In this document: positions 4,699-34,010 of the stretch, piece by piece
Layout of the letters: the number at the start of each line of letters is the position of its first letter
Numbering within the stretch: the stretch's first letter is position 1
Assembly: GCF_013155545.1 (NCBI RefSeq)
Contig: NZ_JABJVV010000001.1
Span: 124,001 to 188,000 of the forward strand
Source of the DNA: Caenimonas soli
GTDB lineage: Bacteria; Pseudomonadota; Gammaproteobacteria; Burkholderiales; Burkholderiaceae_C
DNA length: 64,000 bases
Direction of reading: 5' to 3'
Program-made: the position numbers and the translations under genes
The notes under the pieces: generated by a model
Told to the model about the DNA's origin: nothing
Database searches by the model: none
Seen by the model: the letters and a program-made list of their open reading frames with translations, nothing else

Positions 4699-7600
4699 TT
4701 GTCGTCCCTGAGCATCACCTTCCCCGAATCCCTGCCGGTCTCGGCCAAGCGCGACGAGATCGCGGCCGCGATCGAGTCCAACCAGGTCGTCATCGTCTGC
4801 GGCGAAACCGGCTCGGGCAAGACCACGCAGCTGCCCAAGATCGCCCTGGGCCTGGGCCGGGGCAAGCTGAACTACCCACAGGGCCAGGGCCGGCTGATAG
4901 GCCACACGCAGCCACGCCGCATCGCGGCCTCCAGCGTCGCCAAGCGCATTGCCGAAGAGCTGAACACGCCGCTGGGTGAGGTCGTGGGCTACAAGGTGCG
5001 GTTCCAGGACCGGCTGTCGCGCGATGCATCGGTGAAGCTGATGACCGACGGCATCCTGCTCGCCGAGACCCAGACCGACCCGCTGCTCAAGGCCTACGAC
5101 ACGATCATCATCGACGAGGCGCACGAACGCAGCCTGAACATCGATTTCCTGCTCGGGTATCTGCGCGAAATCCTGCCACGCCGGCCCGACCTGAAGATCA
5201 TCGTCACCTCGGCCACCATCGATGCCGATCGTTTTGCCAAGCATTTCCAGTCAGCGAAGGGGCCAGCGCCCGTCATCTACGTGTCGGGGCGGATGTACCC
5301 GGTGGAGCAGCGCTGGCGGCCCTTCGAGGATTCACGCGATTACGGGTTGAACGAGGCGATTGCCGATGGCGTGGACGAGCTCTGGCAGGGCGGTGGTGGC
5401 GGCGACATCCTGGTCTTCTTGCCGGGCGAACGCGAAATCCGCGAGGCGGCGGATCATCTGCGCAAGCACCTGTCGCACCAGCCGTTGACGCGCAATGCCG
5501 AGGTGTTGCCGCTGTTCGCCCGGCTGTCGCAGGCCGAGCAGGACCGCATTTTCGACAACCACAGCGGGCGCCGCATCATTCTGGCGACCAACGTGGCCGA
5601 GACTTCGCTGACCGTTCCGGGCATTCGCTATGTGGTCGACGCCGGCACGGCTCGTGTGAAACGCTACAGCTTCCGCAGCAAGGTGGAGCAGCTGCTGGTG
5701 GAGCCGATCAGCCAGGCGGCGGCCAACCAGCGCGCCGGCCGCTGCGGGCGCGTTGCCAACGGCATTTGCATCCGCCTGTACGACGAGAAGGATTTCGCCG
5801 GCCGGCCGCGATTCACCGACCCGGAAATCCTGCGTTCGTCCTTGGCCGGCGTCATCCTGCGCATGAAAGCCTTGCACCTCGGTTCGGTCGAAGACTTCCC
5901 CTTCATCGAGGAGCCTTCGCGCCGCGCCATTGCCGACGGCTACCAGCTGCTCAACGAGCTGGGCGCGGTGGACGATACCAACGAGCTCACGGCCATGGGC
6001 CGCGAGCTGGCCAAGCTGCCGCTGGACCCGCGCGTCGGCCGCATGATCCTGGAAGGACGCGAGCGAGGCGCGCTCGACGAGGTTCTGGTCATTGCGTCGG
6101 CGCTCTCGGTGCAGGACGTGCGCGACCGCCCGATGGAGTTGCAGGCCCAGGCCGACCAGCAGCACGCGAAGTTCGACGACGAGAAGAGCGAGTTTTCCGG
6201 CTATCTGCGGTTGTGGAAATGGCTGGACGAATCGCGCGGCGGCCATGACAAGCAGCACAAACTGAGCAACCGCCAGTACGAACAGCTGCTGCGCCAGAAC
6301 TTCATCAACGTGCGGCGGGTGCGCGAGTGGCGCGACATCCACAGCCAGTTGCACACCGTGGTGGCGGAGCACAAGTGGCAGCTGAACGCGGCACCGGCCA
6401 GCTATGAGGAATTGCACAAGTCGATGCTGGCGGGCCTGCTGGGCAACATCGGCTGCAAGCTGGACGAGGAGGACGTGTACCTCGGCGCGCGCGGCATCAA
6501 GTTCTATCGCCATCCCGGCGCGCACCTGAAGAAGAAACCGGGCCGCTGGATCGTCAGTGCGGAGCTGGTGGAAACCACCCGCCTGTTCGGGCGCGGCATT
6601 GCCAACATCGAGCCGCTGTGGATAGAGCAGGTGGCCGGGCACCTGCTCAAGAAGCAGCTGCTCGATCCGCACTGGGAGAAAAAGGCTGCCGAAGTGATGT
6701 CGCTGGAGCGCGCCACGTTGTACGGCCTGGTGATCTACAGCGGCCGGCGGGTGCCTTTCGCCCGCGTCGATATGCAGGGTGCACGCGAGATATTCATCCG
6801 CGAGGGCCTGGTGGCCGGCCAGTGGGAGACGAAGCTGCCGTTCCTGGCCGCCAACCAGAAGCTCGTCAAGCAGGTGGAGGAGCTGGAGCACAAGTCGCGC
6901 CGGCAGGACGTGCTGGTGGACGAAGAACTGATCTATGCGTTCTACGACAAGTTCATTCCCCGCGACGTGTTCAGTGGCGCCAGTTTCGAGCGCTGGTTCC
7001 GCGAAGCCAGCCGCGGACATCCCGATCTGTTGAAACTGACGCGCGACGAGCTGATGCGGCATGAAGCCGCGGGCATCACGACCGAGGCCTTCCCGAAGTC
7101 CATCCGCATGGGCGGCGTGGATTGCGCCGCGACTTACCTGCACGAGCCCGGCGACATCCGCGATGGCATCACCGTGACGGTGCCGCTGTTCGTGCTGAAC
7201 CAGGTGAACGAGGACCGCGCCGAGTGGCTGGTGCCCGGGATGCTCAAGGACAAAGTGCAGGCCCTCCTCAAGAGCCTGCCCCAACGACCCCGTTCGCGCT
7301 TTGTCCCGCTGCCGGAATCAGCTAATCGGCTGGCAACGCAGCTGTCGCAGCCCGAGTTCTGGGCCAATGGGTCGCTGACCGATGCCTTGCTGAAGATCGT
7401 GCGTGCCGATACCAGCCTGGACGTGAAGCGCGCGGACTTCAAGCTCGACATGCTGCCTGCGCATCTGTTCATGAATTTCCGCGTGGTGGACGAGCACGGA
7501 CGCCAGCTGGGCATGGGGCGCAATCTGGGAGCGCTGAAGGCGGAACTGGGCGCGCAGGCGCGTGGGGCTTTTCAGGCATTGGCCGGCATGAAGGCCTTGC

Positions 7601-8538
7601 CTGCCTCGCCGGCGAGCCCTCATGCCGGCGCTCATGCCGACGCTGCGCCAGTGACTGCGGCGGAGCCAACAGCCAAGCGCCTGGTGGGCGACCAGCGCTA
7701 CACCGCCTGGACCTTCGGCGAACTGCCCGAGCTGATGGAAATTCGCAAAGGCGGCACCAGCCTGATCGGGTTCCCGGCGCTGATCGACCAGGGCGATGCG
7801 GTGACGATCGAGGTATTCGACGAGCCCGACGTCGCGGCGGCAAAGCACCGCGCGGGCTTGCGCCGGCTGTTTGCCCTGCAGATCAAGGACGCCCTCAAGT
7901 ACCTGGAAAAGAACATCCCCGACCTGCAGAAAATGGCCGTCGCCTTCATGCCGTTGGGGACGCAGGAGGAACTGCGCGAGCAGATCATCGAGGTGGCGCT
8001 GGAACGAGCGTTCATGCTGGAGCCCTTACCCGCCGACGAGATCGCCTTCAAGCGCCGGATCGAGGAAGGCCGTGGCCGCCTTACCTTGATCGCCAATGAG
8101 GTGGCGCGGCTGGCCGGCACGGTCCTGGTGGAGTACGCCGCGGCGGTGCGAAAGATCAAGGACACGAAAAACCAGCCCGATGCGACTGCCGATGCCGCTC
8201 AGCAGTTGCAGCGCCTGATGCCCAAGCGCTTCCTGGCGGCGACGCCCTGGGCCCAGTTGCAGCATTTCCCGCGCTACCTCAAGGCCATCACGCTGCGCCT
8301 GGACAAGCTGCGCAGCGATCCCGCGCGCGATACCACGAGGATGGCTGAACTGCGACCGCAGGAGCAGCGCTACTGGCGGCTGGTGGCCGAACGCAAAGGG
8401 GCCGTGGACGACCGAATGCAGGAGTTGCGCTGGCTGCTCGAGGAACTGCGCGTGAGTTTTTTCGCGCAGGAATTACGTACGCCCCAGCCGGTGAGCGTCA
8501 AACGGCTCGACAAGCTTTGGGTGCAGCTCAACAGCTGA
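4699..8538 (+). CDS. hrpA: ATP-dependent RNA helicase HrpA
   Basis: 1279 residues, close to the about 1300 of E. coli HrpA. DEAH-box helicase: Walker A GETGSGKT at 35-42, DEAH at 139-142 (IIIDEAHERS), motif III TSAT, and motif VI QRAGRCGR. The helicase core is followed by the helicase-associated and OB regions and a long C-terminal DUF3418 part ending about residue 1275. In E. coli HrpA acts on mRNA and, according to later work, helps rescue stalled ribosomes. The best start in frame is TTG at 4699; no ATG or GTG precedes the Walker A motif in a plausible position, so weak initiation is expected. It lies 34 bp after the degenerate GGDEF gene and may be co-transcribed. Confidence 0.95.
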   Translation: MSSLSITFPESLPVSAKRDEIAAAIESNQVVIVCGETGSGKTTQLPKIALGLGRGKLNYPQGQGRLIGHTQPRRIAASSVAKRIAEELNTPLGEVVGYKVRFQDRLSRDASVKLMTDGILLAETQTDPLLKAYDTIIIDEAHERSLNIDFLLGYLREILPRRPDLKIIVTSATIDADRFAKHFQSAKGPAPVIYVSGRMYPVEQRWRPFEDSRDYGLNEAIADGVDELWQGGGGGDILVFLPGEREIREAADHLRKHLSHQPLTRNAEVLPLFARLSQAEQDRIFDNHSGRRIILATNVAETSLTVPGIRYVVDAGTARVKRYSFRSKVEQLLVEPISQAAANQRAGRCGRVANGICIRLYDEKDFAGRPRFTDPEILRSSLAGVILRMKALHLGSVEDFPFIEEPSRRAIADGYQLLNELGAVDDTNELTAMGRELAKLPLDPRVGRMILEGRERGALDEVLVIASALSVQDVRDRPMELQAQADQQHAKFDDEKSEFSGYLRLWKWLDESRGGHDKQHKLSNRQYEQLLRQNFINVRRVREWRDIHSQLHTVVAEHKWQLNAAPASYEELHKSMLAGLLGNIGCKLDEEDVYLGARGIKFYRHPGAHLKKKPGRWIVSAELVETTRLFGRGIANIEPLWIEQVAGHLLKKQLLDPHWEKKAAEVMSLERATLYGLVIYSGRRVPFARVDMQGAREIFIREGLVAGQWETKLPFLAANQKLVKQVEELEHKSRRQDVLVDEELIYAFYDKFIPRDVFSGASFERWFREASRGHPDLLKLTRDELMRHEAAGITTEAFPKSIRMGGVDCAATYLHEPGDIRDGITVTVPLFVLNQVNEDRAEWLVPGMLKDKVQALLKSLPQRPRSRFVPLPESANRLATQLSQPEFWANGSLTDALLKIVRADTSLDVKRADFKLDMLPAHLFMNFRVVDEHGRQLGMGRNLGALKAELGAQARGAFQALAGMKALPASPASPHAGAHADAAPVTAAEPTAKRLVGDQRYTAWTFGELPELMEIRKGGTSLIGFPALIDQGDAVTIEVFDEPDVAAAKHRAGLRRLFALQIKDALKYLEKNIPDLQKMAVAFMPLGTQEELREQIIEVALERAFMLEPLPADEIAFKRRIEEGRGRLTLIANEVARLAGTVLVEYAAAVRKIKDTKNQPDATADAAQQLQRLMPKRFLAATPWAQLQHFPRYLKAITLRLDKLRSDPARDTTRMAELRPQEQRYWRLVAERKGAVDDRMQELRWLLEELRVSFFAQELRTPQPVSVKRLDKLWVQLNS

Positions 8539-16600: not shown

Positions 16601-16899
16601 TGTCCAGCCGCAACCCGCCGCGCTATGTGCCCACCCTCACCGAGGTGGTCAAGTCCTCCGCCGCCCCCGAGGCGGCGGTCTCAGTGGGCGTGTCGCAGGA
16701 GCAGCTCATTGCCCGCGTGATGCAGCGCGTCGATCTCGTCCTGGAGCGGCGGTTGCGCGAGGCCATCGCCACCACGGTGCTGGAGCAGACGCGATCCATC
16801 GCCCCCTTGCTGCGCGATGAAATCGAGTCGGTCGTTCGCGAGACCGTGTCGCAGGCGTTTGTCGACGAGCTGGCGGCCGGGCAGCACACCCGGAAATAG
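16600..16899 (+). CDS. Small acidic hypothetical protein, coupled to holC
   Basis: 99 residues. Starts at ATG 16600, where TGATG overlaps the holC stop, so it is translated with holC. No signal peptide or membrane segment. Residues about 35-90 form a predicted helical region rich in Glu, Arg and Val (VMQRVDLVLERRLREAI), ending DELAAGQHTRK. No recognised domain. The position suggests a betaproteobacterial companion of HolC, perhaps taking part in clamp-loader assembly, but that is only inference. A stand-in for the missing psi subunit is possible and untested. Confidence 0.7.
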   Translation: MSSRNPPRYVPTLTEVVKSSAAPEAAVSVGVSQEQLIARVMQRVDLVLERRLREAIATTVLEQTRSIAPLLRDEIESVVRETVSQAFVDELAAGQHTRK

Positions 16900-17065
16900 C
16901 GCTCGCGAGACACTGTTCATTAGCGCCGCGGCGACTGGGGTATTCCCCCTTATCGGCCCCAACCTAGACCTTTCCCTATGGTTCGGGTCCGGAAATTGCG
17001 ATATGTTCGCCGCCGTTGAGCCTAAAAAGATATCTCAACCCTTTTCCCTACTCTGGAGGTTAGTT

Positions 17066-18196
17066 ATGCAAATGAAGTTGAAATTGACGGTTGTCGCCAC
17101 CATCGCCGCAGTTGCGGGCATGGTGTCCGCTCAAGAACAAGTGGTCAAGATTGGCCACGTCGCGCCCATGTCCGGTGCCCAGGCCCACTACGGCAAGGAC
17201 AACGAAAATGGCGTGCGGATGGCCATCGAGGACCTGAACAAGCAGGGCGTGACCATCGGTGGGAAGAAGGTCAAGTTCGAGATCCAGGCTGAAGACGACG
17301 CAGCCGACCCGAAGCAGGGCACGGCCGTCGCACAAAAACTGTGCGACTCCAAGGTCGCCGGCGTGGTTGGCCACCTGAACTCGGGCACCACCATTCCCGC
17401 TTCCAAGGTCTACAACGACTGCGGCATCCCCCACGTCACCGGCGCGGCCACCAACCCCGACCTGACCAAACCGGGCTACAAGACCACCTACCGCATCCTT
17501 GCCAACGACAATGCGCTGGGCGCGGGCTTGGCACTCTATGCCGCCGATAAGCTCAAGCTCAAGAAAGTGGCGATCATCGACGACCGCACGGCTTATGGCC
17601 AGGGCGTTGCCGCGGTGTTCAAGAAGACCGCGGAGTCTAAGGGCCTGCAGGTCGTCGACTCGCAGTTCACGACCGACAAAGCCACCGACTTCATGGCCAT
17701 CCTGACTTCCATCAAGTCGAAGGCTCCGGACGCCATCTTCTACGGCGGCATGGACGCGCAAGGCGGTGCGATGTTGCGCCAGCTGGAGCAGCTCGGCATG
17801 TCGAACGTCAAGTTCTTCGGCGGTGACGGCATCTGCACGGCTGAGATCGCCAAGATCGCGGCCGGCGCCAAGACGCTGGGCAATGTGATCTGTGCCGAAG
17901 GCGGCGCTTCGCTCGCGAAAATGCCCGGCGGTACGGCTTGGAAGAAGCGTTACGACGAAAAGTACCCGAACCAGTTCCAGGTCTACAGCCCGTACACCTA
18001 TGACGCCACGTTCGTGCTGGTGGACGCGATGAAGCGCGCCAACTCGGTCGATCCGAAGGTCTACACCGCCAAGCTGCCGGAGACCAGCTACAAAGGCGTG
18101 ACGACTACCATCGCCTTCGAGCCCAACGGCGAGCTGAAGAACCCGGCCATCACCCTGTACGTCTACAAGGACGGCAAGAAGGTCCCTCTGGAATAA
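17066..18196 (+). CDS. Branched-chain amino-acid ABC transporter substrate-binding protein
   Basis: 376 residues with a signal peptide (about 1-22, cleaved after VSA before QEQVV). The periplasmic-binding fold is of the LivJ/LivK type (VVKIGHVAPMSGAQAHYGKD, GVVGHLNSGTTIPASKVY). It delivers Leu/Ile/Val or related ligands to a LivHMGF permease, but no permease genes are adjacent. Start ATG 17066 has GGAGG at 17055-17059; a longer upstream frame has no such site. A Rho-independent terminator follows 17 bp after the stop, so it is a single-gene transcript, expected to be highly expressed. Ligand unproven. Confidence 0.92.
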   Translation: MQMKLKLTVVATIAAVAGMVSAQEQVVKIGHVAPMSGAQAHYGKDNENGVRMAIEDLNKQGVTIGGKKVKFEIQAEDDAADPKQGTAVAQKLCDSKVAGVVGHLNSGTTIPASKVYNDCGIPHVTGAATNPDLTKPGYKTTYRILANDNALGAGLALYAADKLKLKKVAIIDDRTAYGQGVAAVFKKTAESKGLQVVDSQFTTDKATDFMAILTSIKSKAPDAIFYGGMDAQGGAMLRQLEQLGMSNVKFFGGDGICTAEIAKIAAGAKTLGNVICAEGGASLAKMPGGTAWKKRYDEKYPNQFQVYSPYTYDATFVLVDAMKRANSVDPKVYTAKLPETSYKGVTTTIAFEPNGELKNPAITLYVYKDGKKVPLE

Positions 18197-18238: not shown

Positions 18239-18448
18239 CATGGGCTGGAACAAAGGTAGCTGTGCCTCGGTCCCTACAGGGGCCTGTCAGGACTCTGCGA
18301 TTGTTAACGTAGGTTTCGTCCTACAGAGCGCGCGGGCGCTGCGTTTGCCGGAGGCCGGTATTCCCTCCGGCTTGTGGCGCCTAGCCGAACACAGTACTCT
18401 GCTTCGACTTGTAGCCGCGTTACGGCTACTTACGTATGGGGAACAGCA

Positions 18449-21400
18449 ATGGAAGTAGTGGCGAAATTGCCTTCGGCGGATCAGCGCGACAGCGAGCTGA
18501 AGCAGGTGTTGAAGGCGCTTGGCGCCTTCAGGCGGGGGGAAAGCGGTGTCACGCTGCCCACGGAATGGGACGGGGTGTACGGCAAGATTGCCGCTGAATT
18601 CAACGATCTCACCGCGCAGACGGCGCGCACCTCCCACAAACTCAAGGCCATCGAGACTGCGGCTCGCGGCACGGCCAAATCACGGCGTGTGACCGATGAG
18701 AAGCTGACCGGTTTCTGGCAGAACGACGTGGCCGTCGTCAATTCAGTTCTCGATGAAGTCGATGGCTTGTCCGAGCACACACGCACCTTCCTCTCCGCAC
18801 TGACTGATTTGAAGAAGGGCAACGCCTCGGCCCAGCTGCCGCAGGATTGGACCGGCGTCTTCGGCAAGGTCGCCGACGCCTTCAATGACGTGGTGGCCGA
18901 GAACCTGCGCATGTCGCACGAGCTGTCGCGCCTGTCCCGCGTGGTGGGTAAGGAAGGCAAGCTCAAGGAGCGGGCCTTCGTGCCCAATGCCAGCGGCTTC
19001 TGGCGCGATTCCGCCGAGTCCATCAACTCCCTGATCGCCGACCTGGTGCACCCGACGTCTGAAGTCGCGCGAGTGATCGGTGCGGTGGCGCAGGGTGACC
19101 TGTCCAAGAGCATGGCGCTGGAGGCCGATGGCAGGCCGCTGGAAGGCGAGTTCCTGCGCACGGCCATGATCATTAACAAGATGGTGCAGCAGCTGGGCAC
19201 CTTCTCCGCGGAAGTGACGCGGGTGGCGCGGGAAGTGGGTACCGAAGGCAAGCTGGGCGGCCAGGCCGATGTGCAGGGCGTGGCCGGTACCTGGAAGGAC
19301 TTGACCGATTCGGTGAACTTCATGGCCTCGAACCTGACGGCCCAGGTGCGAAACATTTCCGGCGTGACCAAGGCCGTGGCGACGGGCGACTTGTCCAAGA
19401 AGATCACCGTGGACGTGAAGGGCGAGATTCTCGAACTGAAGAACACCATCAACACCATGGTGGACCAGCTGCGATCCTTCGCGTCGGAAGTGACGCGGGT
19501 GGCCCGGGAAGTGGGTACCGAAGGCAAGCTGGGCGGCCAGGCCGATGTGCAGGGCGTGGCCGGCACCTGGAAGGACTTGACCGATTCGGTGAACTCCATG
19601 GGTTCGAACTTGACGGCCCAGGTGCGAAACATCGCCGAGGTGACCAAGGCCGTGGCGGCCGGTGACCTGTCCAAGAAGATCACCGTGGACGTGAAGGGCG
19701 AAATCCTGGAACTGAAAAACACCATCAACACCATGGTGGACCAGTTGCGATCCTTCGCGTCGGAAGTGACCCGAGTGGCCCGGGAAGTGGGTACCGAAGG
19801 AAAGCTGGGCGGCCAGGCCGATGTGCAGGGCGTGGCCGGCACCTGGAAGGACTTGACCGACTCGGTGAACTCCATGGGCTCGAACCTGACGGCCCAGGTG
19901 CGAAACATCGCCGAGGTGACGACGGCCGTGGCGGCCGGTGACCTGTCCAAGAAGATCACGGTGGACGTGAAGGGCGAGATTCTCGAACTGAAGAACACCA
20001 TCAACACCATGGTGGACCAGCTGCGGTCCTTCGCGTCGGAAGTGACGCGGGTGGCCCGGGAAGTGGGTACCGAAGGCAAGCTGGGTGGTCAGGCCGATGT
20101 GCAGGGCGTAGCCGGCACCTGGAAGGACTTGACCGACTCGGTGAACTTCATGGCCGGTAACCTGACGTCCCAGGTGCGGAACATCGCCGACGTGACGACG
20201 GCCGTGGCGGCCGGTGACCTGTCCAAGAAGATCACGGTGGACGTGAAGGGCGAAATCCTGGAGCTGAAGAACACCATCAACACCATGGTGGACCAGCTCT
20301 CCTCGTTCGCTTCGGAAGTGACGCGGGTGGCCCGTGAAGTGGGTACCGAAGGCAAGCTGGGCGGCCAGGCCGATGTGCAGGGCGTAGCCGGTACCTGGAA
20401 GGACTTGACCGATTCGGTGAACTCCATGGGTTCGAACCTGACGGCCCAGGTGCGAAACATCGCCGAGGTGACGACGGCCGTGGCGGCCGGTGACCTGTCC
20501 AAGAAGATCACCGTGGACGTGAAGGGCGAAATCCTGGAACTGAAAAACACCATCAACACCATGGTGGACCAGTTGCGATCCTTCGCGTCGGAAGTGACCC
20601 GGGTGGCCCGGGAAGTGGGTACCGAAGGAAAGCTGGGCGGCCAGGCCGATGTTCAAGGCGTGGCGGGTACCTGGAAGGACTTGACCGATAACGTGAACTT
20701 CATGGCCGGCAACCTGACCTCTCAGGTGCGGAACATCGCCGACGTGACCAAGGCCGTGGCGGCCGGCGACCTGTCCAAGAAGATCACGGTGGACGTGAAG
20801 GGCGAGATTCTCGAACTGAAGAACACCATCAACACCATGGTGGACCAGCTGCGGTCCTTCGCGTCGGAAGTGACGCGGGTGGCCCGGGAAGTGGGTACCG
20901 AAGGCAAGCTGGGTGGCCAGGCCGATGTGCAAGGCGTTGCCGGCACCTGGAAGGACTTGACCGACAACGTGAACTTCATGGCCGGTAACCTGACCTCCCA
21001 GGTGCGGAACATCGCCGACGTGACCAAGGCCGTGGCGGCCGGTGACCTGTCCAAGAAGATCACGGTGGACGTCAAGGGCGAAATCCTGGAGCTGAAGAAC
21101 ACCATCAACACCATGGTGGACCAGCTCTCCTCGTTCGCTTCGGAAGTGACGCGGGTGGCCCGTGAAGTGGGTACCGAAGGCAAGCTGGGCGGCCAGGCCG
21201 ACGTGCAGGGCGTGGCCGGTACCTGGAAGGACCTGACCGACAACGTGAACTTCATGGCCGGCAACCTCACCTCCCAGGTGCGCGGTATCGCCAAGGTGGT
21301 GACCGCCGTGGCCAACGGCGACCTGGACCAGAAGCTCACCGTGGAAGCCAAGGGCGAAATCGCCGCGCTGGCCGACACCATCAACTCCGTGACCGACACG

Positions 21401-24400
21401 CTGGCCACCTTCGCCGACCAGGTGACGACGGTGGCGCGCGAGGTGGGCGTGGAAGGAAAGCTGGGCGGCCAGGCCAAGGTGCCGGGCGCCGCGGGCACCT
21501 GGAAGGGCCTGACGGAAAACGTGAACCAGCTGGCCGCCAACCTGACGACGCAGGTGCGAGCCATTGCCGAGGTGGCGACGGCCGTGACGCAGGGTGACTT
21601 GACGCGGTCGATCACGGTGGAAGCGCTGGGCGAGGTGGCCGCGCTGAAGGACACCATCAACGAGATGATCCGCAACCTGAAGGACACGACGCAGGTGAAC
21701 ACGGAGCAGGACTGGCTCAAGACCAACCTGGCCAAGTTCTCCCGGATGCTGCAGGGCCAGAAGGACCTGGTGGCCGTAGGTCACCTCATCCTGTCGGAGC
21801 TGGCCCCGGTGGTGGGCGCGCAGCAGGCCGAGTTCTACGTGCTGCGCTACACGCACGAACTGCCCAAGCTGCGCCTGATGGCCAGCTACGCCTCGGATGG
21901 CCACGGCTCCTACGGCAAGGAGGTGGACATGGGCCAGGGCCTGGTCGGCCAGTGCGCCTATGACAAGAAGAAGATCCTCTTGACTTCTTCCATTCCGGAC
22001 AGCCTGAAGATCTCGTCGGGCCTCACCGAGGTGGAGCCGCTGAACGTGCTCGTGCTGCCCATCATCTTCGAGGGCCAGGTCCGCGGTGTCGTGGAGCTGG
22101 CGTCGGTGGAGCGCTTCAACCCGACCCACCAGGCCTTCCTGGACCAGCTGACCGAATCGATCGGTATCGTGATCAACACGATCGAGGCCAACATGCGCAC
22201 GGAAGACCTGCTGACCCAGTCGCAGTCTCTTGCGCAGGAGTTGCAGAGCCGCCAGCAGGAACTGCAGCAGACCAACGAGGAACTGCAGGAAAAGGCCCGT
22301 CTCCTGGTGCACCAGAACCACGAGGTGGAACGCAAGAACCAGGAAGTGGAGCAGGCCCGCCAGGCCCTTGAAGACAAGGCCAAGCAGCTGGCGTTGACCT
22401 CCAAGTACAAGTCCGAGTTCCTGGCTAACATGTCGCACGAGTTGCGTACGCCCCTGAACTCGCTGTTGATCCTGTCGGACCAGCTGTCGAAGAACCCGGA
22501 CGGCAACCTGTCGCCCAAGCAGGTTGAATTCGCCAAGACCATTCATTCGTCGGGTAACGACCTGCTGATGCTGATCAACGACATCCTGGACCTGTCCAAG
22601 ATCGAGTCCGGCACGGTGGTCGTGGACATCAACGAACTGCGCATGTCAGACCTGCAGCTGTATGTGGAGCGCACGTTCCGTCACGTGGCCGAGGCCAAGA
22701 ACGTGGACTTCATGATCCATACCGGGGTGAACCTGCCGACCTCGATGGTCACCGACGTCAAGCGCCTGCAGCAGATCCTGAAGAACCTGCTGTCCAATGC
22801 CTTCAAGTTCACCCACCAGGGCAACGTGACCCTGACGGTGGAGGAAGTGTTCACCGGCTGGACGCCGGACAACGACGACCTCAACCGCGCCCAGCAAGTG
22901 CTGGCCTTCGCTGTGTCCGACACCGGTATCGGCATCTCCAGCGACAAGCAGCAGATCATCTTCGAGGCCTTCCAGCAGGCCGATGGATCGACCAGCCGCA
23001 AATACGGCGGCACAGGGCTGGGCCTGGCCATCAGCCGCGAATTGTCCAAGCTGCTGGGCGGGGAAATCCGGCTGTCGAGCGCGCCCGGCCAGGGCAGCAC
23101 GTTCACGCTGTACCTGCCCCTGGTCTATTCGGGCGCCCGCGCGACCCGCCGCGTGGCGCAGGCCTCGAACGAGTCCCGCGGCGATATGACGATGCCCGGC
23201 CTCAAGCGCATGCTGCGCCCCGAGCCGCCGCAGGTCGAAGACGCCGTGGTGGTGGGCGACGAAGGCTCGGCGTTGAACGAGGCCAGTGACGACCGCGATT
23301 CGATCCAGCAGGGCGACCTGGTGCTGCTGATCGTGGAGAACGACCTGGCTTTCGCCAGCTTCCTGCTGGACGCCGCGCGCTCGAAGGGCTTCAAGGGACT
23401 GGTTACCTCGATGGGCGCCGGCGCCTTGACGCTGGCGACCCAGTACAAGCCTTCGGCGATCACGCTGGACATGTACCTGCCCGATATGGACGGTTGGCGG
23501 GTGCTGGATCGCCTCAAGCAGGACATGGGTGCCCGTCACCTGCCGGTCTGCGTCATCTCCACCGACGATTCCAAGGACCGCGCGTTCCGCTCGGGCGCGA
23601 TGGCTTTCGTGGAGAAGCCGATACAGTCCAAGGAAGTCCTGGACGCGATGCTGGACAAGCTGCAACGCTACCTGGCGCGCCCGCACAAGAGCCTGCTGGT
23701 GGCGCTGAAGGATGTCGCAGCGCGACGCGAATTCCTGGCCCAGATCGAGGAAGACGAGATCGCGTCCACGGTGGTGAAGAGCGCCGAGAAGCTGCAGGAG
23801 GCGCTGGAGGAAAGCCGCTTCGACTGCGTGGTTCTCGAGGATGGATTCCCCGGGATCGAGGGCGGCGAGTTCCGCCGCCTGCTTGCCGCGCAGGCCGAGA
23901 TCGGGCCGCTGCAGTTGTTGATCTACCGCGGGGCGAGCAAGGATGCCGGCAAGTTCGCGTGGCACTCGGACGACACCATCACCGTCCAGGAAGCCCACAC
24001 CGTTCCCAAGCTTTTCGACAACACGCTGCTGGCGCTTCACCACAACCTGGCCAGGTTGCCGGAGGCCAAGCGGACGCTCATCAACAATATCCATGAATCG
24101 AGCAAGCCGCTGGCCGGCAAGCGCGTCCTCATCGTCGATGACGACATGCGTAACATTTTTGCCCTGGCCACCGTGCTGGAGGAGCACGGCATGGATATTG
24201 TCTGGGCGGATAATGGCCGGGATGCGATCTCTCGCGTGGCGACGGATCCCCACATCAAAGTTGTATTGATGGATATCATGATGCCCGAGATGGACGGCAT
24301 GGCGACCATGAAGGAAATACGCAAGCTACCGGCGGGGAAGAACCTGCCGATGATTGCGGTAACGGCCAAGGCCATGAAGGGCGATCGGGAAAAATGCATC

Positions 24401-24484
24401 GAAGCGGGCGCATGGGACTACCTGTCCAAACCAGTCAACACGCAGGACCTTCTGACGGTGCTGCGCGCCTGGCTGCACCAGTGA
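18449..24484 (+). CDS. Giant soluble poly-HAMP hybrid histidine kinase with three receiver domains
   Basis: 2011 residues with no signal peptide or membrane helix. Order: degenerate HAMP-like segments (about 1-254); eight near-identical 92-residue HAMP-type units (255-990) and a diverged ninth (991-1082); GAF (about 1100-1250); coiled coil (1250-1318); HisKA with His1330 in [10 protein letters not shown]; HATPase with DTGIGIS near 1490 and [10 protein letters not shown]; receiver 1 (1622-1740, Asp1674); receiver 2 (1747-1870), degenerate with Glu at the acceptor place; receiver 3 (1890-2010, Asp1942). Repeated HAMP units of about 90 residues in a cytosolic hybrid kinase are known from fungal group III kinases (Nik1/Os-1, osmotic sensing) and some bacteria. 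The signal is unknown. Start ATG 18449; an upstream in-frame start has no support. Its stop overlaps the GTG of the next kinase. Confidence 0.92.
19211..21694 (+). repeat. Tandem array of 276-bp units (poly-HAMP coding repeats)
   Basis: Nine in-frame units, each 276 bp (92 codons), starting at 19211, 19487, 19763, 20039, 20315, 20591, 20867, 21143 and 21419. The GTGGGTACCG landmark recurs exactly every 276 bp in the first eight (19235, 19511, 19787 and so on). Units 1-8 share near-identical first halves ([18 protein letters not shown]), with differences limited mostly to S/N, FMA/SMG and K/T swaps; the second half of unit 8 and unit 9 are diverged. High DNA identity implies recent duplication or gene conversion, so copy number could vary between strains and assemblies could collapse here. 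Confidence 0.95.
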
Positions 24485-26559
24485 GTCCGGCGGTGGCTTC
24501 CAAGACGCCGCCGCTCGAGCAGGAAAAAGTCAACATCCTGGTGGTCGACGACCTCCCGGAAAAGCACGTCGTCTTCGGCAGCATCCTGGAGGAGTTGGGC
24601 CAGAACATCGTCAGCGCCCGCTCCGGGCAGGAAGCCCTGCGCCACATCCTGGAGCAGGAATTCGCCGTCATCCTGCTTGACGTCAACATGCCGGATATCG
24701 ACGGCCTGGAGACGGCGAGCCTGATCCGCCAGTACAAGAAGTCGTCGCAGACTCCCATTGTGTTCATCACCGCCTACGTGGACGAGGTCCAGGCCAAGCG
24801 GGGATACGCCTTGGGCGCGGTGGACTACATCCCTTCGCCGGTCGTTCCCGAGGTGCTGCGTTCCAAGGTGAGGGTGTTCGTCGAGCTCTTCCGCATGAAT
24901 CGCCAGCTGCAGCTGCAGGCGGCTGCGCGCGAAGCCCTGGCCCGTTCCGAGGCGGCGCGTGCGGCGGCGGAGGAGGCCATCCACCGGGCCGACTACCTTT
25001 CCGAAGCGGGCCAGCAGCTCTCGCGCTCGCTCCACATCGAAGACACCATCAAGGCGTTGTTCGACGTGGCCGTGCCCATGCTCGCCGACAAGGCCGTGCT
25101 GGCCCTGGCAAACGCCGACGGATCGCTGGGGCGCATGGAAGCGCATCCCGCGTCGGCCGGCGACGCAACCGAATCCTTGCCGCAGAGCCTGCGCGACGTT
25201 CTCACACGGGTACTGGAGAAAAAGCAGTTCGACCTCTGGCGCGAGGGCGACCAGGCCGCCGCCGTCTGCCCGCTGCTGGCGGGTGGCCGTGTCCTGGGGG
25301 CCTTGATCCTGCTGGCTCCCGCTGCGCGCATGGATTCGTCGCGGGTCGCCCTGGCCAAGGAGGTGGTGAGCCGCGCATCGATAGCCATGGAAAACGCGCG
25401 CCTTTATACGGCCATCCAGGATGCCGACCGGCGCAAGAACGAGTTCCTGGCAATGCTGGCTCACGAGCTTCGCAACCCGCTTGCCCCGATTCGCAATGCC
25501 GTGCACATCATGCAGGGCGGCGACGTTTCGCTGCCCACGATGAATTGGGCTCGCGATGTGATTGGCCGGCAGGCCGATCACATGGCGCGGCTGATAGACG
25601 ACCTGCTCGATGTCTCGCGCATCGTCCAGGGCAAGGTCGTGGTCAGGCCCGAAAAACTCAGCCTGGCGTCGCTGGTCGAGCGCTCGGTCGAGGCCAGCGC
25701 GCCCCGGGTGGCCGCGCGGGACCAGGAGCTCAAGGTGGAGCTGCCGGAACAGCCTGTCGTCCTGAACGGCGACGCCGTCCGGCTGGCGCAGGTGCTGGCC
25801 AACCTCATCAACAACGCTTCGAAATTCTCGGGACCGAATACGCAGGTCGTCTTGAGCGCCACGTACGCCGATGGCGAGTTGAAGATCTCGGTGAAGGACC
25901 AGGGCGCGGGCATAGACCCGGCTTTCCTGCCGCACATCTTCGACCTCTTCGCGCAGGCCGACCAGTCGCTCGACCGCTCCCAAGGGGGCCTGGGCATTGG
26001 CCTCACACTGGTCAAGCACCTCGTGGAACTGCACGGGGGCAGGGTAGCTGCTCACAGCGAGGGTGTTGGGCGGGGCACGGAAGTCACGGTGTACCTGCCG
26101 GCGCGGCTGGCGGAGCCGGGCGAAACTCCCACCCCCGCTTCCGGCAGCCGCGCGCCGGTCGTGCTCGGGAAAGTGCCCGCCCGTATCCTGGTGGTCGATG
26201 ACCTCGCGGCATCGGCCGAGACGCTGATGACGTTGCTGGAGATGGAAGGCTTCGAGGTGAAGGTGGCCAGCGAAGGCATGGCCGCTCTCAAGATCGCCGA
26301 GGAGTTCCGTCCCGATGTGGTGCTGCTGGACATCGGCTTGCCCGGCATGAACGGCTTCGAGGTAGCGAATCGCCTGCGCACCCAGCCCGAATCCCGCGAC
26401 GCGCTGATGATCGCCCTGACGGGCTACGGAGAGGCCGAAAGCCGCTCGCGCTCGGTTCAGGCAGGCTTTGACTTCCACATGGTCAAGCCGGCCGACGTGA
26501 ACCTGCTGCTGTCGATGCTGGCCAATCCCCAGAAGGCGCGCAGGTCCAAGGGGGCCTGA
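24481..26559 (+). CDS. Hybrid sensor kinase REC-GAF-HisKA-HATPase-REC
   Basis: 692 residues, soluble. N-terminal receiver (about 16-135, acceptor Asp67 in ILLDVNMPD), where the usual conserved Lys before Pro is Ser (YIPSPVVP), then a helical linker, a GAF-like domain (about 180-310), HisKA with His328 in LAHELRNPL, HATPase (about 435-550) and a C-terminal receiver (about 565-685, Asp617). GTG at 24481 is chosen because GTGA overlaps the upstream stop; this implies translational coupling. Receiver-fronted kinases of this form act downstream in phosphorelays, so the poly-HAMP kinase is a likely partner. No Hpt protein or DNA-binding response regulator is next to them. Ends in a strong terminator. 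Confidence 0.9.
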   Translation: MSPAVASKTPPLEQEKVNILVVDDLPEKHVVFGSILEELGQNIVSARSGQEALRHILEQEFAVILLDVNMPDIDGLETASLIRQYKKSSQTPIVFITAYVDEVQAKRGYALGAVDYIPSPVVPEVLRSKVRVFVELFRMNRQLQLQAAAREALARSEAARAAAEEAIHRADYLSEAGQQLSRSLHIEDTIKALFDVAVPMLADKAVLALANADGSLGRMEAHPASAGDATESLPQSLRDVLTRVLEKKQFDLWREGDQAAAVCPLLAGGRVLGALILLAPAARMDSSRVALAKEVVSRASIAMENARLYTAIQDADRRKNEFLAMLAHELRNPLAPIRNAVHIMQGGDVSLPTMNWARDVIGRQADHMARLIDDLLDVSRIVQGKVVVRPEKLSLASLVERSVEASAPRVAARDQELKVELPEQPVVLNGDAVRLAQVLANLINNASKFSGPNTQVVLSATYADGELKISVKDQGAGIDPAFLPHIFDLFAQADQSLDRSQGGLGIGLTLVKHLVELHGGRVAAHSEGVGRGTEVTVYLPARLAEPGETPTPASGSRAPVVLGKVPARILVVDDLAASAETLMTLLEMEGFEVKVASEGMAALKIAEEFRPDVVLLDIGLPGMNGFEVANRLRTQPESRDALMIALTGYGEAESRSRSVQAGFDFHMVKPADVNLLLSMLANPQKARRSKGA

Positions 26560-26614: not shown

Positions 26615-26705
26615 TGGCGGAGCAGGCGGGATTCGAACCCGCGGAGGGCTATTAACCCTCACACGCTTTCCAGGCGTGCGACTTAAACCACTCATCCACC
26701 GCTCC
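26615..26705 (-). tRNA. serW: tRNA-Ser (anticodon GGA)
   Basis: Ninety-one bases including the encoded CCA. The acceptor stem GGAGCGG pairs with CTGCTCC (one G-U), discriminator G, then CCA at 26617-26615. The anticodon loop CTGGAAA places GGA at 26671-26669, reading UCC and UCU. The extra arm (GTGAGGGTTAATAGCCCTC region) is long, as in all type II tRNAs for Ser. GTTCGAATCC forms the T loop. The symbol is by analogy to E. coli serW/serX. Confidence 0.96.
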
Positions 26706-33594: not shown

Positions 33595-34010
33595 CCGGAC
33601 CTGATCCGGGATCCAGGGACGGATTGCGGGTCAAGCCCACTATTGTCCGGAGAGGAATTCTCATTCGATCGCTAAGTTGTTGCTGCGCTTGACCCGCAAT
33701 CCACCTGTTGCGCGCCAACACCTCGCGGCAAGGCTGTGCGCCGGTCGGCTGCGGCGCGCGGACCAGCCGTTCGGCGCTGGGAGCGCCGAAACGATGCGGA
33801 GGTCGGCGAGCGGTTCGTTGCTGTTGCAGGCCTGCGTGTGGGCGGCGAAGCCGCGTGCGGGCGGGCTGTGACGCGCGGCCAGCCCGTTCCGCGCCTTTTC
33901 AAGGGGCGGAAGCGGCGCCGGGGAACGGACTTGCGGGCTTCAGACTCATCGTGGTCCCGGGGCAAGCTCACATCCACGAGCAATTGCCAGCGCCCCGCAA
34001 TGACAGCCTT
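33595..34010. repeat. Mosaic palindromic intergenic repeat, copy B
   Basis: Non-coding gap of 421 bp between convergent genes (decarboxylase and fabI). Starts with TGTCATCCCGGAC, the inverse of the end of copy A (9609-9910). Contains block 33710-33759 (inverse of 9818-9867) and block 33806-33886 (same orientation as 9700-9787). It also holds a perfect hairpin, TTCGGCGCT/AGCGCCGAA with a 3-base loop, at 33770-33790, and ends with the same 11 bases as copy A, directly before the fabI stop. No coding capacity: the long plus-strand frame through it belongs to yejA only from 34831. It probably forms an RNA/DNA structure at converging transcripts' ends. Confidence 0.8.

Follow-up and report, generated by a model that had tools for sequence, protein, structure and literature searches.

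Among the bacterial systems described so far, the closest to the locus considered here are AskA and AskB of Myxococcus xanthus, hybrid histidine kinases with many HAMP domains (poly-HAMP kinases); the hybrid kinase gene askC lies immediately downstream of askB, the three proteins are reported to bind each other, and a receiver of AskA interacted with that of AskC in a two-hybrid assay (PMC7643160). The same report links AskA and AskB to development and to the ambruticin and glycerol response, and describes ambruticin as bound weakly by AskC and not by purified AskA or AskB. In Streptomyces, OsaA has more than 10 HAMPs and no membrane helix and adjoins osaB (PMC9739842, PMC10117811); deletion of osaB had a strong effect under osmotic stress and deletion of osaA a minor one (PMC10117811). 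In fungi, Candida CaNik1p carries four 92-residue HAMP pairs and a single HAMP, and removal of all its HAMPs activates Hog1p (PMC3848655). Here, we describe a bacterial poly-HAMP hybrid kinase of the AskA/AskB and OsaA kind, with an N-terminal array, HisKA/HATPase, receivers, and no membrane helix, encoded in a 64,000-nucleotide stretch of Caenimonas soli (contig NZ_JABJVV010000001.1, positions 124,001 to 188,000; hereafter the window). We propose, with moderate confidence, that this cytoplasmic kinase works with the kinase encoded directly behind it, a dimeric HAMP rod setting the kinase state and the partner receiving phosphate.

The array kinase is an open frame from an ATG at 18449, taken as the start and shared with the homolog P0002 (JGI); a longer frame from a GTG at 18374 is possible. 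A nine-unit HAMP array is followed by GAF, HisKA, HATPase, and three receiver domains (Table 1), with HAMP, HAMP_2, GAF_2, HisKA, HATPase_c, and Response_reg each above their own Pfam cutoff. HAMP and HAMP_2 (PF00672 and PF18947) reached 327 bits in 9 stretches and 279 bits in 10 stretches, far above cutoffs of 25 and 24.3, and no domain besides HAMPs was recognized in residues 18 to 1083, before the GAF. No membrane segment was found, the highest 19-residue Kyte-Doolittle mean being 1.68, within receiver 1. Receiver 2 lacks the usual acidic residues, as judged by eye. An earlier reading made from the letters alone (the sequence-only reading) had described a soluble hybrid kinase of 2011 residues with nine 92-residue units every 276 bp and GAF, HisKA/HATPase, and three receivers behind them, all of which was recovered; the partner kinase downstream was not mentioned in it.

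Table 1. Features of the poly-HAMP kinase and its downstream partner, with positions in the window
Feature	Residues	Position	Strand	Basis
Poly-HAMP hybrid histidine kinase, 2011 aa		18449..24484	+	Open frame, Pfam
Degenerate N-terminal HAMP-like pair 1	18-101	18500..18751	+	BLASTP to residues 112-197; no detection by HAMP HMMs
Degenerate N-terminal HAMP pair 2	112-199	18782..19045	+	Divergent-HAMP HMM at 161-199, 23.5 bits; start of PDB 9trk match
Cap canonical HAMP, longer loop	205-256	19061..19216	+	Canonical-HAMP HMM, 33.7 bits
Core units 1-7, each divergent HAMP + canonical HAMP, 91-100% identical	257-900	19217..21148	+	
Unit 8, divergent half core-like, canonical half diverged	901-992	21149..21424	+	
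Unit 9, 57-62% identical to the others; position kept between species, as for unit 8	993-1083	21425..21697	+	
GAF	1105-1242	21761..22174	+	GAF_2 PF13185, E 4.5e-13
HisKA, H-box SHELRTPLN	1321-1388	22409..22612	+	PF00512, E 3.3e-18
HATPase_c	1436-1558	22754..23122	+	PF02518, E 4.3e-29
Receiver 1, phospho-acceptor Asp and Lys present	about 1622-1735	23312..23653	+	PF00072 stretch; boundaries and residues by eye
Receiver 2, degenerate, Glu at acceptor site	about 1758-1875	23720..24073	+	PF00072; boundaries and residues by eye
Receiver 3, canonical	1893-2005	24125..24463	+	Best PF00072 stretch
Partner hybrid kinase: receiver, GAF-like (below cutoff), HisKA, HATPase, receiver		24481..26559	+	Pfam
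Partner N-terminal receiver, conserved across phyla	48-159 of the 24394 frame	24535..24870	+	PF00072

Tandem Repeats Finder reported a period of 276 with 8.7 copies and 0% indels, and a divergent-HAMP motif recurs at residues 257, 349, 441, 533, 625, 717, 809, 901, and 993, always 92 residues (276 bp) apart. Two hidden Markov models (HMMs), built from the divergent and canonical unit halves of 19 arrays, matched alternately at the fixed spacing of 92: the divergent model at residues 161 to 199 (weak) and nine times between 257 and 1038, and the canonical model at 205 to 256 (weaker) and nine times between 300 and 1083. With a shuffled control, one model had no match and the second scored 0.5 bits. 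Each 92-residue unit is therefore a pair, a divergent HAMP followed by a canonical one; the sequence-only reading had taken the unit correctly for a HAMP repeat but had not seen that it holds two, and the eight near-identical units that it counted hold for the divergent halves, near identity extending over seven full units. Residues 18 to 101 resemble residues 112 to 197 (33% over 86 positions, E 5e-17, BLASTP), so that a HAMP-like pattern appears to extend to the N terminus, although the HMMs gave no match before residue 161. Counted from the loops, about 23 HAMPs would be present, 12 canonical-type and 11 divergent-type in alternation, the first two or three placed by weak likeness only.

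To compare this array with its relatives, a close and a distant set were used. The close set consists of 21 regions, the window and 20 fetched, of which 19 have intact frames and two (L053 and L058) have broken ones and were excluded from unit and identity counts. Three of the intact regions have 9 units, ten have 11, and two have 12; G058 (from another family) has 8, G031 has 4, and both paralog regions have 14. One of these 14-unit paralogs, a 2380-residue frame, is in the window's own genome (L056; G000:C4, about 157000 to 164300). The distant set was drawn with PDB entry 9trk as the query against species genomes, which gave at least 581 confirmed stretches; the best 80 loci were retained, 64 of them closed. 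PDB 9trk and 9trj are histidine kinase-Gcn4p fusions, and residues 101 to 390 of the window kinase align with 9trk gap-free at 400 bits, although 9trk covers only the first HAMPs of its parent protein. The best match to the 9trk letters among the distant loci, at 93%, was in Myxococcus qinghaiensis, by which 9trk is almost surely a Myxococcus protein.

By record title, the 80 distant loci represent twelve phyla, with Myxococcus/Polyangium, Acidobacteria, Elusimicrobia, Gemmatimonadales, Cyanobacteria, several proteobacterial classes, Bacteroidetes, Verrucomicrobia, Planctomycetota, Dormibacteraeota, Riflebacteria, and one actinobacterium among them. Eight of 150 sampled genomes of the phylum, the window's own included, matched one unit at E 1e-15, all eight with at least 8 matches, and the array matched 167 of 72,556 plasmid records (E 1e-40), of which 111 are from Rhizobium; the plasmid records add Deinococcus to the host range. 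The poly-HAMP array is thus widespread in bacteria, a known but little-studied family that is mirrored in fungi. The likeness to fungal group III kinases that had been noted stands for the units, which resemble the 92-residue pairs of CaNik1p, but not as a fungal signature; likewise, the family is little studied, as had been said, yet AskA/AskB and OsaA have been studied and a close array is in the PDB.

The 92-residue register was exact wherever it was followed: in 579 of 579 intervals at the 80 distant loci, in 632 of 632 intervals in 120 proteins for which the kinase half alone had served as the query (P0002 to P0121), and throughout five annotated plasmid loci. The motif scan tolerated 6 substitutions (5 in the count of the close relatives' units), and strongly diverged units would escape it; however, a skipped inner unit would read as 184, which was never seen, so the register is not owed to missed units. 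In the N-terminal cap, spacings at the loop glycines are 94, 92, and 97, so that the strict register holds for the array itself. For array lengths, a rule of three (9, 6, 11, and 12 units were commonest in the 64 closed loci, with 7 and 10 absent) was considered and dropped, as 7 and 10 units occur in the kinase-half set; similarity by lag had no stable peak, the distant loci slightly favoring lag 1 and Ramlibacter lag 5.

The array was also the most conserved part of the protein. Across 61 closed loci the median identity of one window unit was 88% (85 to 92), compared with 66% (32 to 74) for the HisKA/HATPase core, 52% for GAF, and 59% for receiver 3 (58 loci), and unit identity exceeded kinase-core identity in 61 of 61. 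The unit comparison picks the best of several units and so favors the array; as a check, residues 257 to 900, the whole core array, had a median of 86% (69 to 91) over 59 loci. Having been found by an array query, the distant loci are biased toward conserved arrays, and relatives found otherwise were used to check this: unit and kinase core were 89 versus 79% in G058 and 88 to 89 versus 68 to 69% in the paralogs, found with the whole protein, and 90 versus 65% in Paraburkholderia phymatum and 79 versus 47% in Mesorhizobium 131-2-5, from plasmids searched separately with the array and the kinase half. Within Ramlibacter the gap is small (14 orthologs; kinase core 88 to 96%, unit 95 to 100%), and in G013 receiver 3 (94%) lies above the core array (90%). 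No match to the N-terminal 204 residues reached 70% coverage in any of the 61 distant loci. Judged by these identities, the array is better conserved than the kinase core, which seems under-appreciated.

Of the 35 hydrophobic unit positions, 31 were at least 95% conserved in 74 loci, and of the 47 polar or charged ones, 25 were, so the constraint goes beyond the helix core. This bears on a passive role for the array, as a rod that spaces, dimerizes, or localizes the kinase while the partner kinase or the GAF domain senses. Such a role is possible but doubtful: GAF is the only classical ligand-type domain, ambruticin is bound by AskC rather than by AskA or AskB, and comparison of array length among relatives gave a range of 4 to 14 units, but a spacer would not be expected to exceed every other part of the protein in conservation, polar and charged positions included, and HAMP deletions in fungal kinases alter activity. 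The conservation suggests instead that the rod meets something universal. A far-reaching form of this idea, which we regard as speculative and unlikely as a whole, would make the array the sensor, its near-invariant HAMP surface (about 86 to 88% identity from Myxococcus and Acidobacteria to Cyanobacteria) reading one universal intracellular quantity, be it a physical state of the cytoplasm, a ubiquitous ligand, or a ubiquitous protein; with the linked receiver-kinase it would form an ancient stress phosphorelay whose input half is common to bacteria and fungi.

Near-identical units could also arise as an assembly artifact or by recent neutral expansion, an explanation that is largely refuted for the array as such and to which we give almost no credence. 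Several draft genomes do break within the array, with matches at contig ends, and the best third-position match of 7 of 7 window core units lies within the same array. However, P0002 matches the window protein at 1962 of 2011 positions, gap-free and with the same nine units, only 3 of the 49 differences falling within residues 257 to 1083. The exact unit number is supported by agreement among P0002, G020, and G013, all with nine, and as far as can be told the array is not misassembled, a concern that the sequence-only reading had itself raised. Third-position identity among the window core units is 0.74 to 0.96, whereas protein identity is 0.91 to 1.00, and the core units of G020 share 94% protein identity but 69% at third positions. 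The ratio of nonsynonymous to synonymous differences (pN/pS) of the core units is 0.15 in the window and 0.08 to 0.34 over 18 arrays with enough core units, by which the core units are under purifying selection. The last two units are positional orthologs between species (third positions 0.84 and 0.79 against G020), but the core units are not. Taken together, pN/pS, third positions, and positional orthology indicate that the core protein sequence is held by selection while the units turn over. Strict concerted evolution was dropped, as the core units of several species match best in another species at third positions.

Directly downstream, in the AskB-AskC-type layout, lies the second hybrid kinase, whose probable GTG start overlaps the upstream stop by 4 nt (GTGA) in a frame that is open from an ATG at 24394. 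Of 63 distant downstream genes, 33 matched its N-terminal receiver (hereafter the special receiver) at E 1e-20, with 45.6 to 63.9% identity. Counted over the 63 distant loci with at least 1.5 kb behind the array, a special-receiver gene lies within 600 bases of the array in 36 and further on in 6; in an upstream control covering either strand, the special receiver was present in 8 of 76 loci. Many of the 36 genes resemble the partner in its kinase part as well, and an in-frame start with a 4-nt stop overlap was seen in 21 of 55 loci with a gene near, the window included. Among the intact relative and paralog regions a special-receiver gene is close downstream in 18 of 18, at 46 to 50% in the two paralog regions. 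Behind the paralog L056, too, the next gene carries a special receiver. No description of this cross-phylum pair of array kinase and receiver-led gene was met in the open-access literature searched, partly with other aims, and it may well have been published elsewhere.

Other gene orders were also seen. A CheR gene follows the array in 15 loci, one of which has it on the opposite strand at a distance of 3.5 kb. In the Myxococcus locus L059 the array kinase is followed by CheR, CheB, and a receiver protein, and in Deinococcus QL22 by CheR and a receiver-PAS-kinase with a 56% receiver. On two Streptomyces plasmids (L142, 6405 to 16245; L141, 4890 to 12989) the array kinase is followed by a SpoIIE phosphatase that also has ANTAR, PAS, and GAF-like parts and whose N terminus did not match the special receiver. 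With STAS, anti-sigma, or SigF genes nearby, this is a partner-switching stress setting.

In the mechanism that we favor, two chains would associate as a single long parallel rod, its canonical and divergent HAMPs alternating between two packing states. Through the strict repeat of 92 residues the helices would stay in register, so that a change anywhere along the rod would shift the GAF/DHp region between kinase and phosphatase activity. From the histidine, phosphate would pass to the kinase's own receivers and, by our inference, to the N-terminal receiver of the partner. Least sure are the ends of the pathway: an intracellular stress of the osmotic, desiccation, or starvation type may be read by the conserved array or by an array-bound protein, and the output may be a general stress or dormancy program. 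The rod and its packing states draw on general HAMP biochemistry and on the solved Myxococcus-type array. The proposal builds on the domain content, the lack of a membrane helix, the HAMP pairs in strict register, purifying selection, and the higher conservation of the array than of the kinase core; on the conserved and often overlapping partner, the adjacency and binding of AskB and AskC, and the AskA-AskC receiver interaction; and on the activation of signaling by array deletion in CaNik1p.

Several observations weigh against this mechanism. A special receiver is missing behind the array in 21 of the 63 distant loci, 10 of them with CheR directly downstream. By eye, the N-terminal receiver of the window partner (about 24830 to 24850) carries Ser at the site of the conserved lysine (PSP for KP), and so does that of L129; in 12 printed relatives the Lys is present in 9, the rest having Ser, Ala, or Thr. 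An AlphaFold model of one stretch had a predicted local distance difference test score (pLDDT) of 56, a poor model in which the helix pattern alone fits stacked HAMPs. No common upstream function emerged, as only two-component genes recur (10 of 88 scanned proteins with a receiver; the scan covered 88 of 127 open reading frames from 39 of the 80 loci, those omitted being mostly shorter, with a few long). Finally, the Streptomyces genes osaA, osaB, and osaC reportedly lack transcriptional coupling (PMC10117811).

A stress link is suggested by OsaAB, the two Streptomyces plasmid neighborhoods, and the fungi, and by analogy with these relatives an osmotic or general stress input is plausible. An osmosensor was one suggestion of the sequence-only reading; that the kinase is specifically one of the Nik1 type, switched by compression of the array upon water loss or crowding, seems rather unlikely to us. 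The 92-residue pairs are the same in CaNik1p, OsaAB is tied to osmoadaptation, and Ramlibacter tataouinensis comes from dry sand and forms desiccation-tolerant cysts (PMC3164672), but the osaA deletion has only a minor osmotic effect, AskA and AskB serve development and the ambruticin and glycerol response, and no osmotic gene family stands out beside the scanned loci. The available text of the R. tataouinensis genome paper describes many two-component systems and contains no word starting with "hamp" (PMC3164672). The sequence-only reading had also offered an envelope-stress role, for which nothing turned up, no search aimed at it having been made, and had named the array of the fungal kinases as the target of phenylpyrroles. 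That the array itself is the fungicide target is doubtful, given the lack of ambruticin binding by AskA and AskB and the report that fludioxonil does not act directly on the kinase (PMC6433957).

Another function considered was binding of the array to DNA or the nucleoid, placing the kinase at promoters. AskB bound the mrpC promoter in vitro (PMC7643160), FrzCD, with a di-HAMP adjoining its DNA-binding part, sits on the nucleoid (PMC12077210), and helix-turn-helix families matched the window array (19217 to 21697; SpoIIID, E 7.9e-10; HTH_6, E 1e-4). Nevertheless, this function is very improbable, as the DNA-binding part of FrzCD lies outside its HAMPs and SpoIIID and HTH_6 have 0 individually passing stretches. 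The helix-turn-helix domain was therefore rejected; the matches look like summed weak matches over the repeats. Matches of the same kind in AskA and AskB, likewise apparently spurious, have been taken as putative DNA-binding domains (PMC7643160).

Upstream of the window kinase, at 16817 to 18196, is a gene for a periplasmic binding protein (PF13458) that is present in the same-genus ortholog regions compared; it had no listed match in the G058 region and so probably does not belong to the module. In L059, a KaiC-type ATPase gene with two KaiC stretches (6843 to 8471) lies upstream of the poly-HAMP kinase from Myxococcus. Behind the partner kinase, a tRNA-Ser (26615 to 26705) reaches the Rfam gathering score, and a tRNA-Pro predicted by ARAGORN (33743 to 33833) falls below it.

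In fungi, poly-HAMP kinases are linked to antifungal action. With an array that is the most conserved part of the protein, a register that is exact, and a receiver-led gene that travels with the array across phyla, the question of what such arrays sense becomes approachable in a two-gene system of a harmless bacterium, and the conservation pattern of the family deserves more attention than the single gene. The window kinase belongs to the already known bacterial poly-HAMP kinases, in which conservation, register, and partner seem under-appreciated.

Compared with the described systems, the window kinase is closest in plan to AskA and AskB, which are likewise soluble poly-HAMP hybrid kinases with several receivers and, for askB, a hybrid kinase gene behind; they differ in host and array length and are likened here by description, not sequence. 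At the sequence level, the array of the Myxococcus relative L059 aligns gap-free with the window array (82% over 201 residues), but in L059 CheR and CheB genes intervene between the array kinase and the receiver protein. OsaA resembles the window kinase, again by description, in its more than 10 HAMPs, lack of a membrane helix, and adjoining receiver protein; OsaB, however, is a receiver with a coiled coil, whereas the window partner is a full hybrid kinase. The concatenated HAMPs of the Aer2 aerotaxis receptor (tri-HAMP; PDB 3vol) gave a weak match (E 1.8e-4), and Aer2 differs in what we take to be a chemoreceptor output and a PAS-haem input. With CaNik1p and the Nik1/Os-1 kinases, as published, the window kinase shares tandem 92-residue HAMP pairs and HisKA/HATPase/receiver domains, but the fungal group III kinases have fewer pairs (four pairs and a single HAMP in CaNik1p) and signal to the HOG pathway.

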